In this document: in pieces, positions 31,646 to 44,075 of the stretch
Layout: the number at the start of each line of letters is the position of its first letter
How positions within the stretch are numbered: the first letter of the stretch is position 1
Assembly: GCF_001715975.1 (NCBI RefSeq)
Contig: NZ_MARB01000010.1
Location: forward strand, 1 to 64,000
Length of the DNA stretch: 64,000 bases
DNA from: Candidatus Thiodiazotropha endolucinida
GTDB lineage: Bacteria; Pseudomonadota; Gammaproteobacteria; Chromatiales; Chromatiaceae
Reading direction: 5' to 3'
Notes under the pieces: model-generated
The model's input: the letters and a program-made list of their open reading frames with translations, nothing else
Told to the model about the DNA's origin: nothing
Database searches by the model: none
Program-made: the position numbers and the translations under genes

Positions 31646-32392
31646 TCATTCCGTCTTTAGTCGCTCTTTAACCGCCGTCCGGACATCCTCGTCTTCGTCG
31701 TCGATCAAGGCACCGAGTCGGCTCAGCGGGGCGCGCTGGATAGCGGTAAGCCGTACGCGCCAATCACCGTCATGCAGTAAGGGTTCGAGATAGTCGGAGT
31801 CGACACGCTCGGCCACCACCAGGCGGATCTCTACCGCCTCGTCGTCGATCATCAGACCCAGGCTCTCATCGGGTAGCCTGCCGGCCACGGTTTTACGCAC
31901 TTCACGGTCGGGATCCTTGATCATGCGGAACAGCCGACCCGGCTTGAGCCGTTTGGCCACATACTGGCGTACCAGACAGTCCTCGTCGGTCACCAACTGC
32001 TCCAACAGGTTTTCGGGCAGCCTGTCTGCAACGGTAATCCTGACCTCGCGATCGGGATCAGTAATCAGCGGCCCCAGGTTTTCAACCGGCAGGCGGTAGG
32101 CCAACACACGACGGACCACCTCGTCAGGATCGTCGATCATCTGCAACAGGTGCTGTTGGGACAGGTAGCGTGCAGCGATGGCACGCCGCTCCCAAAATTC
32201 GTCGCCTGCGTAGTGCTCTGCCAGGTCGGGGTTGATGTTGAAGAAACGTGCGATCTGCCTGCCGCTGGAGGCCCTGACACAGACATCCCCCGGGGTGCAG
32301 CGTCCCGCGCGAAGGCGGTCGCTCCTGTGGGGACAGCGCGCACAATCCGCGACGGGGGTGACATCCTTCTCCTCCATCACGGCAGCGTTCAT
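31646..32392 (-). CDS. LRV (leucine-rich variant) Fe-S protein
   Basis: The 248-residue protein has an N-terminal cysteine cluster, CARCPHR ... CTPGDVC, fitting the [4Fe-4S] site of Azotobacter LRV. It is followed by seven or eight 24-residue helical repeats of the type DPDREVRxTVAxRLPxExL. LRV proteins are found beside nifY and nifT, but their role is not known; a sensor or assembly adaptor is possible. Start overlaps the next-upstream gene by 4 bases. Confidence 0.88.
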   Translation of the reverse strand: MNAAVMEEKDVTPVADCARCPHRSDRLRAGRCTPGDVCVRASSGRQIARFFNINPDLAEHYAGDEFWERRAIAARYLSQQHLLQMIDDPDEVVRRVLAYRLPVENLGPLITDPDREVRITVADRLPENLLEQLVTDEDCLVRQYVAKRLKPGRLFRMIKDPDREVRKTVAGRLPDESLGLMIDDEAVEIRLVVAERVDSDYLEPLLHDGDWRVRLTAIQRAPLSRLGALIDDEDEDVRTAVKERLKTE

Positions 32393-37224: not shown

Positions 37225-38127
<903 letters not shown>

Positions 38128-38286: not shown

Positions 38287-38302
38287 TGTATGGATGAAAA
38301 CA
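38287..38302 (-). promoter_or_regulatory. Possible NifA site upstream of nifH, overlapping draT start
   Basis: TGT-ATGGATGAAA-ACA matches TGT-N10-ACA about 133 bases upstream of the nifH start. It contains the draT ATG, so a chance match is possible. Confidence 0.5.
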
Positions 38303-39135
38303 GACAACAGACCACGACATCGGCCTCCCTTCCCGCCCATGCGCGTCTGCCCATCAACCACTGCAATCTGCCCTCGGTGATCCTTGGCAGCCTCACCTTC
38401 CAGCACCACCCCACACCGCTGCGCCTGGATGGCGTGGAGCAACTGCATGCCGCGCTGTTCGAGAGTCTCGATCCGGTTGCGGATGCCGATACCCGGGCCG
38501 GACATTTCATGGACTATATGCGTTCGGGCTTCCTGCTGGACAATCTCGATGAGGCGGGATTCGATGAACAGAAGCGCGGCATTAAAAGAGGCAAGGCAGA
38601 CTACCTTCGAACACTTCGTGGCTGGTTGTTCGATGCTGACGGCAAGGAGGCCGCTGTGCTTAAGAGCTGGGTCGAATCACGGTTCGGGCTGCTGCCCCTG
38701 AATCACAGGGGGCCGTTGGGCGTTGGCGCGGAAGACAACTACCACGCCTACCTGTCGGCCCGAGCCAAAGGGCTCTACAACACCAATGCCCTGGAGTCAC
38801 AACTCGACCTGCTCTACAGCTACTGTCAATACGAAGTGACCAGGCAATATCCTAGTGAGCACCACGTCACCCTCTACCGGGGCATCAACCGTATCGATGA
38901 ACACGAAATACTGCATCAACCCGCCAAGGACGTTTATATCCTAACGCTGAACAACATCAATTCTTTCAGCAGCAATCGGGAACGGGCGGATGAGTTCGGT
39001 GACTATATCCTCGAGGTCAAAATACCGCTCACAAAGCTACTCTATTTTCCCGGACTGCTGCCCAATGCCCTGAAGGGCGAAGAGGAGTACCTGGTGATTG
39101 GTGGTGTCTACGAAGTGAAGGTGAGCTTGCTTTAG
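38290..39135 (+). CDS. draT: DraT, dinitrogenase reductase ADP-ribosyltransferase
   Basis: The 281-residue protein has the DraT core NHCNLPSVILGSLTFQHHP, GVEQLHAALFESL, HVTLYRGINR and a later INSFSSNRERADEFGDYI. The last fits the arginine ADP-ribosyltransferase R-S-E arrangement. It uses NAD+ to inactivate NifH in response to ammonium or energy loss. Transcribed divergently from nifH across 189 bases. I see no sigma-54 promoter in front of it, unlike its partner draG, which lies in the nifB operon. Confidence 0.92.
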   Translation: MDENRQQTTTSASLPAHARLPINHCNLPSVILGSLTFQHHPTPLRLDGVEQLHAALFESLDPVADADTRAGHFMDYMRSGFLLDNLDEAGFDEQKRGIKRGKADYLRTLRGWLFDADGKEAAVLKSWVESRFGLLPLNHRGPLGVGAEDNYHAYLSARAKGLYNTNALESQLDLLYSYCQYEVTRQYPSEHHVTLYRGINRIDEHEILHQPAKDVYILTLNNINSFSSNRERADEFGDYILEVKIPLTKLLYFPGLLPNALKGEEEYLVIGGVYEVKVSLL

Positions 39136-40157
39136 CCTGTATTTCTCACACCTGTTCTTAGCGAGATGGCTTCATGGCTCATATCACATTCAGAATGTGA
39201 ATGGATGACATGGTCGATTCAAGAAATGGATGGGATTTTTCGAGGCATCGTCACCAAATACCTAGGTAACTACACGGCTTGGAGTAAGACATTAGACAGG
39301 TATCCAAATCTAACCGTAGAACATCTTTTTCTTTCTGCACAGTAGCAATACCAAGATCAAGTCTTTTTGTCTCTTTACGGCCAGTAGCGGAAGATTCAAC
39401 TGTATATGCATAAGAAATCTTGCGCTGAAAAGCAGACCTAATTTTTGCAGTGCAATAGACTGTAGGTTACCCACAGAGTGAACTAAATAAGTAAACTGTC
39501 ACCGGAATTCTCCCCAGACCGTCGTCCTCGATAAAACCTATGCGAGCCCCCGGCATAGCCGGTGGTTTACACAATTCAATTAAATTGTTAAATGTGAAAT
39601 GGAAAATTCCACAGTCTCACGAGCCATAGCCCGATACGCTTGAGAGAAAAGTAGACCGCTCTATTGAGAAATACTTGATGGCAACCTAAACGGATACTGC
39701 TTACGGATCCGTGTTGTACACTGATCACAGATCTATTTTACTCGGATAGGACAGTTTTACATTAAAGGTGCTTAGTGTGAATTTGTTCTATATCCTTATT
39801 TCTTGATCTAGCGCATTGTAAATAATGTATATATTTAGATCATTGATGCTGGGAGGCGGCATATCAACAGAATTCCTATTTTTCCAGTTTGTTACTTAGT
39901 TGGAAATTAGGTGATGGAGTAAATGCTCTATTACTAGTCACTGTATTTGAAGTGCTGCTTTTGGCCCTGATATGGTATTGGAAGACATGTAAAAATCAGT
40001 TAGAGCTATTGAAACTCAACAACAGAGTTAATAATAACTAAAAAAAGTTTTATATATATTGCATATTTCTATGGGTAGATGTCAGAAAATATACAGGTAT
40101 TAAATATCTACCAATGTATATGAATACCATACTATAACTCGAATTGAAGGATTCAAA
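39136..40157. other. AT-rich intergenic region, no clear gene
   Basis: About 1 kb with base composition drifting from GC-rich to strongly AT-rich. It holds a perfect 17-base palindrome TCACATTC-A-GAATGTGA at 39184-39200 and a hairpin at 39545-39566. A short frame near 39889-40041 has one membrane-like helix (VNALLLVTVFEVLLLALIWYW) but lacks an ATG start and seems cut by frameshift. Likely degraded foreign DNA. Confidence 0.5.
39545..39566. repeat. REP/IS200-like hairpin
   Basis: GCCCCCGGC-ATA-GCCGGTGGT forms a stem with one mismatch. Its form recalls the hairpins at the ends of IS200/IS605 or REP-type elements. No transposase is present. Confidence 0.35.
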
Positions 40158-40880
40158 ATGAGAATTACAGTTTTATTAATCATAATACTATTATCTTTTT
40201 ATGGATGTTCGACGGGGGAGAATGAACCGTCCAAAAAAATGATCATAGATTCATTGGAGGATATATTACCAGGCTATATAAAAATAAAAGATATTCATAT
40301 TGAAATATCTAAAAATATACGTAGTCGCGTAGAGCCTTTAATTAGATCTAGATTTTCAGCTGATGCAATTTTGGAAAGTGACTTTGTCCACAGGGATAAA
40401 TATAAAGACAAATACGGTGAAAATTTTAAAATCTACGGAATATCCAAATCAGATTACAACTTAAACAAGTGGCAGATTGGTTTTGAAAAAATACAAATCG
40501 AACAAAAATTTTATGGTTCTCCGCTTTACACAGAGTCACTGATGGGTGGCTGGGAAGGTGTGTATGTGTGTGGAGGTGAGGAAAGAGGGCTTAAGTTACG
40601 AATTTATAGTACAGAAAATAAGAAAGTAGAAGCTTTATTTAATTTTTACCCTTTAACTAAAGAATCTAAATTTAAAGTAGGTTCATTTATGATGAAAGGT
40701 TCTGTATATAATTGGGGTGGATTTAAATTTACTGCGGAGAAATGGATTGAAAGACCAAAAAATTACCACACATTAGATTTAAAAGGACAAATAGATAGTT
40801 CAGGTAGTAAGCTAATAGGAACAATACCATTTCAAAATAATTGCTCAACATTCGAATTAACAAAAACCATGGGCGGATGA
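40158..40880 (+). CDS. Putative lipoprotein, AT-rich orphan gene
   Basis: The 240-residue protein starts with a hydrophobic leader and a Cys at residue 17 (LLSFYGCSTG), a plausible though loose lipobox, so it is probably lipidated. The rest is Lys/Ile-rich with no family I recognise; there are aromatic clusters such as MGGWEGVYVC and GGFKFTAEKWIERP. The codon use is strongly AT-biased, unlike all neighbours, which indicates recent transfer. AAGGATTC upstream is a weak ribosome site. No link to nif genes beyond position. Confidence 0.7.
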   Translation: MRITVLLIIILLSFYGCSTGENEPSKKMIIDSLEDILPGYIKIKDIHIEISKNIRSRVEPLIRSRFSADAILESDFVHRDKYKDKYGENFKIYGISKSDYNLNKWQIGFEKIQIEQKFYGSPLYTESLMGGWEGVYVCGGEERGLKLRIYSTENKKVEALFNFYPLTKESKFKVGSFMMKGSVYNWGGFKFTAEKWIERPKNYHTLDLKGQIDSSGSKLIGTIPFQNNCSTFELTKTMGG

Positions 40881-41434
40881 AGATAGGTGACACCCATATT
40901 ATAACATTGATATCTCGTTAACTTGTGAGTAGTAAATCAAGTGTCTGCGGTCACCAAAGTAAAGTAGCAAGAAATTGAAAAAATAAACTCAATAACTGCA
41001 ATAACCGGGGACCAATAAACGGGGACAGACCACGGTTTCCTTAGTCAGCTATAAGCCTAACTCCGGACCTCGTGTCAAGGCGGCGTCAACATCGCCATTG
41101 GTCGCATAGTTGACGTTCTTGATGACCCACATGGCTACACGAATTTCAACACTTCACGGTAACAGAACCAAAAAGAATGTGTTGTATAAGGCTGCAGCAT
41201 ACACAAATAATGTACTGAGAAAGGGCAATACCCACTTATCACTTATTTCGTTATCGAAATGGATAATTTGATCAGCCACTTCGTAGAAACCGACTCCGCA
41301 CCTGGCACCTCTTCTAAAATAACTAAAAAACAACAATTCTCTGCCACTATTCATGCCTACCGGGTCATTCGGATAAATAAAGCAACAGTTAGAGCGCACA
41401 CAGTTCCGTGACAACTCAACAACAACCCAGCAAT
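40881..41434. other. Intergenic with repeat remnants
   Basis: No supported gene; a 139-codon frame on the minus strand runs across a sigma-54 promoter and is rejected. The stretch AAACGGGGACAGACCACGG near 41.02-41.04 kb resembles the sequence commonly flanking REP-associated transposase genes. ATTTCG/CGAAAT at 41245-41260 is a small palindrome. Confidence 0.5.
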
Positions 41435-41450
41435 TGTCAGAAACCTTACA
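41435..41450 (+). promoter_or_regulatory. NifA upstream activator site for the SIR2-like operon
   Basis: TGT-CAGAAACCTT-ACA matches TGT-N10-ACA, about 80 bases upstream of the inferred start. Together with the promoter below it places this operon in the nif regulon. Confidence 0.7.
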
Positions 41451-41495
41451 CACCGAATCACGCATAACCGAATGTTTCCATAGTCTTTCTTCACT

Positions 41496-41511
41496 TGGCC
41501 TGGCTCTTGCA
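41496..41511 (+). promoter_or_regulatory. Sigma-54 promoter of the SIR2-like/hemerythrin operon
   Basis: TGGCCTG-GCTC-TTGCA keeps the essential GG and GC at the right spacing, with two departures from consensus in the -24 box. Start expected near 41523, 26 bases before the ATG. Confidence 0.75.
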
Positions 41512-41548
41512 ATGGGTAGTGGCAACCATCGATCAAAGGAGCCCGAAA

Positions 41549-42415
41549 ATGCCCGAGTCAAGTTTGCAGGCACTAGTCAGCGGTATCGCCGCAGGTGAGA
41601 TCGTGCCCTATCTAGGTCCAGGCGCCCTGAAAAGCGCGCGCAATGTTGAAACCGGTGAACCGATTCCTGCAGACAGTGACAGCCTGATTCTCGCCATGAA
41701 CAACGGCAAACCCATGGCGCCACGTCTCATGTATGAATTTCCTCGAGCAGCCATGGATATCGAACTGAAACGCGGACGCACCGCACTGCACCGTTTCCTG
41801 GAATCCACCTATAGTACGACCCAGTGGACCCGCGCGCCGATTCACGATTGGCTGGCTGGCATCAAGCCATCCTATGTCATCGACATCAATCGCGACACCC
41901 AGCTCCAGGACAGCTACGCCGATACGCCCCATACCCTGATACGCGGCATTGCCCGCGTGGGTGGTACTGATTACCGTTTCTGCATCCATCACTACGACGG
42001 GGAAACCTACTCCGAAAACGAAATCGCACAGGACGAGGTCGATACCAGCCTTCCCATACTGTTCAAACCCATGGGCAGTCCCAAGCCTGATCCGACCTAC
42101 ATCGCCTCGGATGCAGACTACGTTGATTACATTACCGAGCTGATGGGCGGATTCGCCATACCCGATTTCGTCAAGAAATATCGCATTGGCAAGCAGTACC
42201 TCTTCATCGGTCTGCGTATGACCCGTGACACCGAACGCATGGTGCTGTCAGACATGATCTACGCCGCATCCGAGCCCAAGGGTTGGGCATTGATCCCCGC
42301 ACCGAATGATAAGGAGCGCCGTTTCTGCAAACGTCTGGGCATCGAGATCATCGAATCTGATGTGGAAGATCTTCTTGCAGCGGCTGCCGAAACCTTTGCC
42401 GAAGGAGCAGCCTGA
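41549..42415 (+). CDS. SIR2-like NAD-binding-fold protein, nif-regulated
   Basis: The protein is 288 residues from the ATG preceded by AAAGGAG. Weak SIR2-family features are present. An N-terminal IVPYLGPGAL takes the place of GAGxS. A middle region runs PSYVIDINRDTQLQDS. A C-terminal block runs LPILFKPMGSPKPDPTYIAS then DADYVDYITELM and QYLFIGLRMTRDTERMVL, as in SIR2-like domains that end in FxGxSxxD. The catalytic His of true sirtuins is not evident. It may bind or hydrolyse NAD+, or only sense it. It heads an operon with a small Cys protein and hemerythrin under a sigma-54/NifA promoter, between draT and draG, both NAD-related. Confidence 0.78.
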   Translation: MPESSLQALVSGIAAGEIVPYLGPGALKSARNVETGEPIPADSDSLILAMNNGKPMAPRLMYEFPRAAMDIELKRGRTALHRFLESTYSTTQWTRAPIHDWLAGIKPSYVIDINRDTQLQDSYADTPHTLIRGIARVGGTDYRFCIHHYDGETYSENEIAQDEVDTSLPILFKPMGSPKPDPTYIASDADYVDYITELMGGFAIPDFVKKYRIGKQYLFIGLRMTRDTERMVLSDMIYAASEPKGWALIPAPNDKERRFCKRLGIEIIESDVEDLLAAAAETFAEGAA

Positions 42416-42417
42416 GC

Positions 42418-42651
42418 ATGGGGAAGTTCGTACCCTGTCAGGGTAAGCACGCCTGTCGCGACAATGAGCTTAGCTGCCTTACCTGTGGACGGGGACTACA
42501 TGAAATCGAAAAGCTTCGACTACTGATGGATCAGCTCGCATCACTGGCCATTGACTATGACTACGAGAATGTTGATGAGTACAGCAGTTACGTAGCCAGG
42601 AAGCTGGAGAAGATGATTGTCTATCGGCGGGATAACGAACAGACAGGCTGA
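42418..42651 (+). CDS. Small cysteine-rich nif-operon protein
   Basis: The 77-residue protein has an N-terminal cysteine group CQGKHACRDNELSCLTCGR (C-x6-C-x6-C-x2-C) and a helical acidic remainder. The pattern could bind zinc or an Fe-S cluster. It starts 2 bases after the SIR2-like stop and ends 26 before the hemerythrin ATG. I recognise no named family with confidence. Confidence 0.7.
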   Translation: MGKFVPCQGKHACRDNELSCLTCGRGLHEIEKLRLLMDQLASLAIDYDYENVDEYSSYVARKLEKMIVYRRDNEQTG

Positions 42652-42677
42652 TATCCATTATATACAAGGATAATTAC

Positions 42678-43097
42678 ATGACTCTTCTGATCGACCCTGA
42701 CAACCCGCGTTATTACCTCGAGTTTGATTCAATGGACAAGACCCATCTCGAATTCATCGAGCTGGTCAATAAACTGGGTAGTGCTGACAGGGAAGCGTTC
42801 AAAACTCTATTCGAGCAGCTTGTGGCGCACACCAATGCCCACTTCAAAGCCGAGAACAAACTGATGTATGAAAGCGGCTTTCCCGCCATACGAGAACATA
42901 TAGGGGAGCATGAGCGCATCCTGGGCGATCTGAACCGAATGGAAATACGGTTGGCCTCTGGCAATACATTGCTTCCACGTGCCTATGTAAAAGATCACCT
43001 GCCAGGCTGGTTTGATCTGCATGCACAAACCATGGACAGCGCGTTGGCAGCACACCTAAAAACCCAACCACAAAATACGAATCGAATTGACAGCTGA
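42678..43097 (+). CDS. Hemerythrin-like protein
   Basis: The 139-residue four-helix protein has the di-iron ligand set: His in MDKTHLEF, HTNAHFKAENKLM, EHIGEHERIL and HLPGWFDLHAQTMD. Bacteriohemerythrins bind O2 reversibly and can deliver or scavenge it, or sense it. Third gene of the NifA-controlled SIR2-like operon. Oxygen buffering for nitrogenase is inferred. Confidence 0.9.
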   Translation: MTLLIDPDNPRYYLEFDSMDKTHLEFIELVNKLGSADREAFKTLFEQLVAHTNAHFKAENKLMYESGFPAIREHIGEHERILGDLNRMEIRLASGNTLLPRAYVKDHLPGWFDLHAQTMDSALAAHLKTQPQNTNRIDS

Positions 43098-43145
43098 ACA
43101 TTCAACCTGAAATTCTCATTGGAATACTGCCCTTATGGTTCCAAA

Positions 43146-44075
43146 TCAGCCGGACATGTCCGCCAATTTCAGAAGCGCAAGGGTCTGACCGTGACAGGCA
43201 GCTTTCACATCCTTGTTCAAAGCCTTTAACCAGTAACCGGGAATCGCATCGACACCGTAGAACGCACCAGCCAGCATACCGGCAATGGCACCGGTGGTAT
43301 CGGCATCCCCTCCCCGGTTAACGACGTCGACAAGAACCGATTCAAAATCATCATTATTGAAAAAGGACTGAAATACCGCCTGCAGGGTTTCAACGATCCA
43401 TCCGCTCGGATTTTCTACCTGTCTGCGGTCAAAGCGGTAAACACGGTGATTTTCCACCAAGCCATTTGCGATATCGAACAGCGCCTGTTTCGACGCGTTT
43501 TTGAAAGCCATGCACAGCATTTGCAGAAGCGCTTCGGTGCCTGCATCGGCCTGGCCATTGTGGTGAGTAATATGGGACTGGGTACGCGATGCAACGAAAA
43601 GTTTATCCCATCCGGCATTCCAATAGGCAATGGCCACCGGCAATGATCGCATACAGGCACCGTTCCCTGCATCGAACTTATTTTCTGGGACCGAAGTTTC
43701 TCCGCTGTTGCGGTAGTGGACGATTCCCCGTCTGACGGTGTTGCCAATATCCACCGGTTTGCCGCGCATCCATTGACTGAATGCTTCTGCAACCGCTTTG
43801 GCCTCGACTTTACCGCTTTCGATGATCGACTGACCCAACGCCAGGCTCATCTCGGTATCGTCGGTCACCTGACCGGGTTTCAGGCGCAGCCAGCCGCCTC
43901 CGCAAATCCTGTCGTGAACACCGTGTTTCTCCCTGATCTCCCTGGGAGTGAGAAACTCTGTTGTGGCACCCAGAGCATCACCGACTGCAAGTCCCAGGTA
44001 GGCCCCAAATGCTCGCTGCTCCAACGTTATATCTTTTCCCGCTACATGCCGTGCTGTGAGATCGGGAGCAAACAT
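43146..44075 (-). CDS. draG: DraG, ADP-ribosyl-[dinitrogen reductase] glycohydrolase
   Basis: The 309-residue enzyme has GAYLGLAVGDALGATTEFLTPREI, the metal-binding GQVTDDTEMSLALG, and near the C-terminus NRGGDADTTGAIAGMLAGAFYG, the dinuclear Mn site of ADP-ribosylglycohydrolases. It removes ADP-ribose from NifH. It is the last gene of the nifB-driven operon, 5 bases after nifQ, and not adjacent to draT. Confidence 0.95.
   Translation of the reverse strand: MFAPDLTARHVAGKDITLEQRAFGAYLGLAVGDALGATTEFLTPREIREKHGVHDRICGGGWLRLKPGQVTDDTEMSLALGQSIIESGKVEAKAVAEAFSQWMRGKPVDIGNTVRRGIVHYRNSGETSVPENKFDAGNGACMRSLPVAIAYWNAGWDKLFVASRTQSHITHHNGQADAGTEALLQMLCMAFKNASKQALFDIANGLVENHRVYRFDRRQVENPSGWIVETLQAVFQSFFNNDDFESVLVDVVNRGGDADTTGAIAGMLAGAFYGVDAIPGYWLKALNKDVKAACHGQTLALLKLADMSG

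Follow-up and report, generated by a model that had tools for sequence, protein, structure and literature searches.

The operon and its promoter

Within a 64,000-nucleotide (nt) stretch of DNA from Candidatus Thiodiazotropha endolucinida (the window; positions 1 to 64,000 of the forward strand of contig NZ_MARB01000010.1, assembly GCF_001715975.1), three genes on the plus strand form a compact operon in the nitrogen fixation (nif) region. The first (41549-42415) encodes a 288-residue protein with a SIR2-type fold and is referred to here as pnfA-like, an identification that rests on its open reading frame (ORF), a PF13289 match, a structure model and alignments. An ORF for a 77-residue protein with four cysteines (42418-42651) begins 2 nt after the stop codon of the first gene, and a gene for a 139-residue bacteriohemerythrin-like protein (42678-43097) comes third. 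Upstream lie a NifA activator-like site (TGT-N10-ACA, 41435-41450) and a sigma-54 (-24/-12) promoter-like site (TGGCCTGGCTCTTGCA, 41496-41511), both on the plus strand, the latter 53 nt 5′ of the pnfA-like ATG. This ATG, at 41549, was taken as the start; an alternative TTG at 41495 was set aside, as it is overlapped by the sigma-54 site. No terminator-like site was found in 41200-43400.

Taken by itself, the NifA motif does not reach significance in the window, with 18 occurrences against 12.4 expected and as many in 8 of 100 shuffles. The combination of NifA and sigma-54 sites precedes 55 of the 80 SIR2 genes formed by the window gene and 79 related loci. The same pair is found before 53 of 698 other long ORFs of these loci, and before 2 of 384 once ORFs matching the nif markers of the window are excluded. 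It is also present at 13 of 19 testable loci without shown nif linkage (0.16 expected from shuffles), a class defined by the lack of a window nif marker in the DNA examined and including several short contigs. This suggests that the gene remains in the NifA regulon when it lies outside the cluster. A wider count gave 66 of 106 loci against 0.95 expected; that set includes near-duplicates (L031/L072 and L035/L083) and ten loci of branch B (defined below) or of other kinds, and the 80-locus count is the one relied on. The conservation of these motifs predicts that the operon is under NifA-sigma-54 control. The ORFs and the conserved promoter pair agree with the original prediction, made from the letters of the window, that three tightly packed genes follow a sigma-54 promoter and a NifA site.

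Relationship of the SIR2-like protein to PnfA

The SIR2-like protein is very probably a member of the PnfA family, described from PST1325 (pnfA) of Pseudomonas stutzeri A1501 (Yan et al. 2010, PMC2820453). In that report, pnfA is divergent from nifH, depends on NifA and RpoN through a NifA-sigma-54 promoter and encodes a protein of about 31.7 kDa; homologs were reported in diazotrophs only, a second subfamily showing 20% identity. A non-polar pnfA mutant had 23% nitrogenase activity at 0.5% oxygen, behaved like the wild type under argon and lost nitrate-supported fixation; nifH transcription was unchanged and the defect was complemented. The authors proposed a role in electron transfer or oxygen protection, and also a similarity to UspA and ETF-alpha (PMC2820453). 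PST1325 was assigned to the branch here called A because its place beside nifH, its size, its SIR2 annotation and the list of its homologs all agree; the second subfamily probably corresponds to branch B.

PST_1325 is named a SIR2 family protein in PMC11332353, and PST1325 was up about 9-fold with the P. stutzeri nif island in Escherichia coli (PMC6053447); PST_1324 was placed at the edge of a cluster (PMC4174501). R. capsulatus Rcc03262 was not found in a nifA mutant, and the SIR2 gene of this organism forms the end of the nifB1-nifZT operon (PMC6925177). ZMO1821 belongs to the Zymomonas nif cluster (PMC8594446) and increases under N2 fixation (PMC8600466), and a SIR2-like protein lies in a Rhodovulum nif operon (PMC9412634). 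A literature search, with subscription journals mostly outside its reach, found no biochemical test of PnfA and nothing joining hemerythrin and nif genes with SIR2 or draT. The statement in the original prediction that no function was known is only partly right, since the SIR2-like gene already has a mutant phenotype in P. stutzeri; that same phenotype supports a role tied to oxygen, as the prediction had proposed, or to respiration (PMC2820453).

Distribution of PnfA-type proteins

The SIR2-like protein was used to search a class sample of 369 genomes; a phylum sample comprised 299 genomes, with G000 (the genome of the window) and G013 present in both. In the class sample, 28 genomes gave a match and 27 were counted as members. 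The excluded protein (G164, locus L055, 31 bits) retains the catalytic histidine and is a SIR2_2 protein of the ordinary kind. Members fall into branch A (18 genomes, 61-100% identity to the window protein) and branch B (9 genomes, 23-30%). The nifD gene occurs in 31 of the 369 genomes (30 above cut-off; in G240 it is in two pieces), 26 of which carry a PnfA member. Among the 338 genomes lacking nifD a single one does (G079, 81% complete), and there nifH lies beside the gene. A profile search of these 32 genomes found a single copy in 27 and never both branches together. In the phylum sample 18 genomes match, 16 of which were counted (above 260 bits; G414 and G461, at 26 and 23 bits, were left out); 14 of the 16 have nifD above cut-off and two (G425 and G603) have lower, nifE-like matches. 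All member genomes have nif genes: 27 of 27 in the class sample (26 by nifD, one by nifH) and 16 of 16 in the phylum sample.

A tree was built with 16 SIR2_2 proteins from outside nif (16 usable of 23 loci, picked by their asparagine motif; the other seven gave no match or no motif). Branches A and B stand together on one side with support of 100/97, a value subject to a long-branch warning; a split that sets branch B apart on its own has support of only 74/89. The closest relative found, at 93% identity, is from Candidatus Thiodiazotropha sp. Among the best 80 loci from named records, which are all of branch A (further relatives exist), 55 carry nifH, D, K, E, N or B, whereas some nif marker of the window is present in 60. 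With a branch B query, 75 plasmid records match, mostly rhizobial (55 of them Rhizobium); among the 20 matches listed, 17 bear the annotation "SIR2 family protein". At nine branch B loci no TGT-N10-ACA site was found in the 400 nt 5′ of the gene, which is expected of a gene inside an operon.

A SIR2 fold with an altered active site

The SIR2 fold suspected in the original prediction is supported. The protein matches PF13289 (SIR2_2; E 9.2e-9, 36 bits against a gathering cut-off of 24.5), and its structure model is confident (predicted local distance difference test score, pLDDT, 94) and adopts the fold shared by sirtuins and NAD-cleaving enzymes (NADases; NAD, nicotinamide adenine dinucleotide). 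The model groups with the NADases ThsA, KomC and DSR2, the closest solved folds being anti-phage NADases; classical sirtuins are more remote. Identity to ThsA, KomC and DSR2 is low (11-18% in the alignments listed). A search of PDB sequences with the single protein returned only matches with E above 0.5, judged to be due to chance, and the PnfA family profile reaches KomC at E 1.3e-5. No NCBIfam model was matched above cut-off by five PnfA proteins of both branches, the best score for the window protein being 13.9 bits against a cut-off of 296.

Residues of the NAD pocket, N114 and D116, are conserved in all 79 aligned branch A sequences. At the position of the catalytic histidine the window protein has M175; the 79 sequences have methionine (55), leucine (21), histidine (2) or threonine (1). 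The GAGxS loop reads LGPGAL in the window, its serine being replaced by L27, and leucine occupies this place in 79 of 79 sequences. The histidine was placed at 175 from a profile-profile alignment and the downstream D-x-D-Y motif. These were preferred to a placement near profile position 150, which would follow from the end of a HMMER local alignment with KomC. In the non-nif SIR2_2 proteins the histidine was read from the printed alignment. In branch B, tryptophan replaces the asparagine in 8 of 8 sequences of a first alignment and 14 of 14 of a second, and a histidine is retained at the catalytic place in 7 of the 14.

With methionine or leucine for the histidine in 76 of 79 sequences and leucine for the GAGxS serine in all 79, PnfA of branch A is likely a SIR2 pseudoenzyme. 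Retention of the asparagine and aspartate with loss of the histidine is the pattern expected of a site in which NAD would be bound but left uncut; PDB titles include DSR2 H171A with NAD+. The original prediction had offered an NAD-using enzyme as one option, which the same substitution makes unlikely for the window protein. What appears to be new here is the placement of this protein's predicted SIR2 fold beside the NADases, together with its changed catalytic residues.

Two side observations concern the same site. The Marinobacterium PnfA proteins (L097 and L129) keep the asparagine and also have a histidine, in the sequence FKPHG, at the catalytic position; in this they differ from the other 77 sequences. 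In G000 itself, a second SIR2_2 protein (L155 on contig C18, a 618-residue frame) has asparagine in place of the catalytic histidine (KVNG).

The hemerythrin and the four-cysteine protein

The third gene encodes a bona fide hemerythrin, as first supposed (PF01814, E 2.5e-10; TIGR02481, 63.7 bits against a cut-off of 51.75); it misses the cut-off of the bacteriohemerythrin model NF033749 (63.6 against 84 bits). Residues H23, H55, E59, H74, H78, H115 and D120, which we take to be the di-iron ligands, are invariant in 17 of 17 sequences. The nif-linked hemerythrins form a distinct group, scoring above 140 bits with their own profile, where the other hemerythrins in the 32 genomes reach at most 109. 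They occur in nine of these genomes, all with PnfA, and adjoin pnfA in six; in the others the gene lies in another part of the nif cluster (G125), about 11 kb from a nifE-like gene (G284) or on a short contig (G303). This profile has eleven matches in G000, of which ten lie outside the window's contig.

The middle protein has the 77 residues and four cysteines first described, their spacing being C-x5-C-x6-C-x2-CGR (C7, C13, C20 and C23) and not C-x6-C-x6-C-x2-C as had been given. Its model (pLDDT 90.8) shows an N-terminal cysteine-rich loop followed by two long helices. A Pfam scan of the window protein gave no match, and its best Foldseek hit has E 4.3; DUF1289 (PF06945) is the top Pfam match of six of six relatives, all below cut-off (best 24.8 against 27), a remote likeness. 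The nif-type protein (above 85 bits) is found in 8 of the 369 class genomes, all with PnfA. Six further genomes (G057 and five without nifD) have only a paralog of 60-71 bits, G084 carries both kinds, and short matches scoring 22-25 bits turned up in 11 genomes. Among the ORFs listed around seven paralog places, five of them in genomes without nifD, no common neighbour was seen; a single neighbour was identified by family, a bacteriohemerythrin whose convergent gene adjoins the paralog in G219 (L137:2864-3674), a genome without nifD.

Among 70 loci with at least 1.5 kb of downstream DNA, the cysteine protein follows pnfA in 13, the hemerythrin in 19, both in six and either in 26. The two are frequent but optional partners of PnfA. 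Linkage to nif, which the original prediction proposed to look for, holds for the SIR2-like gene; the trio as a fixed unit does not.

Neighbouring genes

As originally described, the operon is flanked by draT (38290-39135, plus strand; DRAT domain match) and the convergent draG (43146-44075, minus strand; TIGR02662), although an AT-rich stretch (28-44% GC) puts 2.4 kb between draT and the operon. After the hemerythrin gene come the convergent draG and nifQ, and nifH (37225-38100, minus strand) lies upstream with draT in between. The region 39136-41300, where GC falls to 28%, contains a single lipoprotein-like ORF (40158-40880). The distance from draT to pnfA varies among relatives, from about 0.2 kb in L031 to about 7 kb in L056. 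Elsewhere in the window, the gene at 31646-32392 encodes what is presumably a leucine-rich-repeat-variant-like protein, whose homologs are found near both PnfA branches in many loci; a "4Fe4S-binding leucine-rich repeat protein" gene is annotated near the Methylococcus branch B gene discussed below.

Interpretation

Our tentative explanation, to which we give somewhat less than an even chance, is that the operon is a NifA-sigma-54-controlled accessory unit of nitrogenase in which PnfA serves as a non-catalytic, ligand-binding adaptor and sustains nitrogenase during respiration. Its best-supported part is the identity and role of the SIR2-like protein, as a nif accessory protein of the PnfA family that respiring cells need; the mechanism is what we infer. 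PnfA would be related to the bacterial SIR2 NADases, with parts of the NAD-cleaving centre lost, and would act without catalysis, binding a pyridine nucleotide or an ADP-ribose-like ligand through the asparagine and aspartate kept in branch A. It might dock on nitrogenase or its electron donors and, once docked, keep nitrogenase supplied or protected during respiration. The hemerythrin, coupled to PnfA in the symbiont and at about one in four related loci, would bind oxygen and perhaps nitric oxide (NO), and in some loci the small four-cysteine protein may join as a local gas-handling or adaptor part. A hemerythrin partner fits with oxygen, and NO from nitrate respiration may explain, in a suggestion of our own, the failure of the mutant with nitrate.

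Several points weigh against this explanation. Klebsiella was reported to lack PnfA (PMC2820453). PnfA is missing from 5 of the 31 nifD genomes of the class (G057, G068, G177, G194 and G322) and from 25 of the 39 phylum genomes with nifD above cut-off; G057 has the cysteine-protein paralog nonetheless. Neither partner lies within 1.5 kb in 44 of the 70 PnfA loci. PST1325 was matched to branch A by description and not by direct alignment. The tryptophan of branch B tells against PnfA as a simple NAD sensor; supposing that both branches perform one task, that task may not involve NAD binding. Finally, catalysis is possible in part of the family, given the histidine in half of the branch B sequences and in the two Marinobacterium proteins, which keep N114 too.

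In a bolder version, the catalytically dead NADase relative would sense NAD(H) or ADP-ribose on behalf of nitrogenase alone, and the hemerythrin would probe oxygen or NO for it. The pair would gate or shield nitrogenase according to respiratory state, post-translationally and separately from DraT/DraG, from lucinid symbionts to rhizobia. We regard this version as doubtful.

The serious rival is that PnfA acts in the maturation, stability or repair of nitrogenase metalloclusters, like NifZ, NifT or NifW, respiration with oxygen or nitrate merely raising the need for repair. Such a role is possible, if on the unlikely side. Branch B lends it support. In the two rhizobial records whose annotation was examined, R. 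etli CFN42 p42d and S. fredii NXT3, the gene ends a nifA-nifB-ferredoxin-nifZ-nifT run, as the R. capsulatus SIR2 gene closes nifB1-nifZT; in Methylococcus sp. EFPC2 it stands among iscA-like, nifZ, nifT, nifS-like and bolA genes. The four-cysteine partner, in turn, could carry metal. Against maturation, the P. stutzeri mutant had wild-type-like activity under argon, which is not expected of a general maturation factor, although the wild type was low there too and the test is weak. Moreover, the invariant PnfA columns hold no cysteine and offer no conserved cysteine ligand set for an Fe-S cluster.

An active sirtuin-type deacetylase, controlling nitrogenase or NifA through lysine acetylation, was proposed for Zymomonas ZMO1821 from its SIR2 annotation and its rise under N2 fixation (PMC8600466). 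Half of the sequences in the second branch B alignment do keep the histidine. We find this proposal very unlikely, in view of the residues replaced in branch A (histidine in 76 of 79, serine in all), the loss of the asparagine in all branch B sequences aligned and the greater distance in fold of classical sirtuins.

Equally improbable is that the operon belongs to the DraT/DraG ADP-ribosylation switch and reads NAD and oxygen for it, as the original prediction had envisaged. DraT uses NAD, and the operon stands between draT and draG in several relatives as well as in the window. Yet draT is present in 12 of the 27 PnfA genomes and absent from 15, and four of the five nif genomes without PnfA have it. 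A last reading, also raised in the original prediction, is that the nif region houses a SIR2 NADase of phage defence. The closest solved folds, those of anti-phage NADases, speak for it, but it is hardly credible given the lack of a PADLOC match, the altered catalytic residues, the NifA-type promoter and the near-strict confinement to nif genomes.

Most of the nif genomes sampled in the class carry a PnfA-type protein, and loss of pnfA in P. stutzeri is reported to cost about three quarters of nitrogenase activity at low oxygen (PMC2820453). Even so, the annotation of these proteins usually goes no further than "SIR2 family". A putative SIR2 pseudoenzyme, linked to a hemerythrin in some genomes, offers a testable route to understanding how nitrogenase works alongside respiration, a question that matters for the transfer of nitrogen fixation into aerobic hosts.

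Comparison with known systems

The window hemerythrin resembles bacteriohemerythrins in passing the TIGR02481 cut-off and in its seven putative di-iron ligands, and differs in scoring below the NF033749 cut-off and in belonging to a distinct nif-linked group. Relatives of the four-cysteine protein share the C-x2-C-G-R-x3-E[IV] motif of DUF1289, whereas the window protein has no match to that family and has a long helical C-terminus. Compared with ThsA, KomC and DSR2, the SIR2-like protein has its catalytic histidine and GAGxS serine replaced and lies in a nif rather than a defence context. Location in nif operons or clusters is shared with Rcc03262, ZMO1821 and the SIR2 genes of rhizobial nifB operons. 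The first two were compared by annotation and nif position; the rhizobial branch B proteins show about 30% identity to the window protein, tryptophan for asparagine and a histidine in half of the sequences. The closest parallel in the literature is PnfA of P. stutzeri, with its NifA-sigma-54 promoter, nearby nifH and diazotroph-only homologs. There nifH is divergent from pnfA; in the window it likewise lies upstream on the opposite strand, with draT in between. The window operon adds a hemerythrin, a DUF1289-like partner and a SIR2 fold, none of them named in the passages of PMC2820453 consulted.
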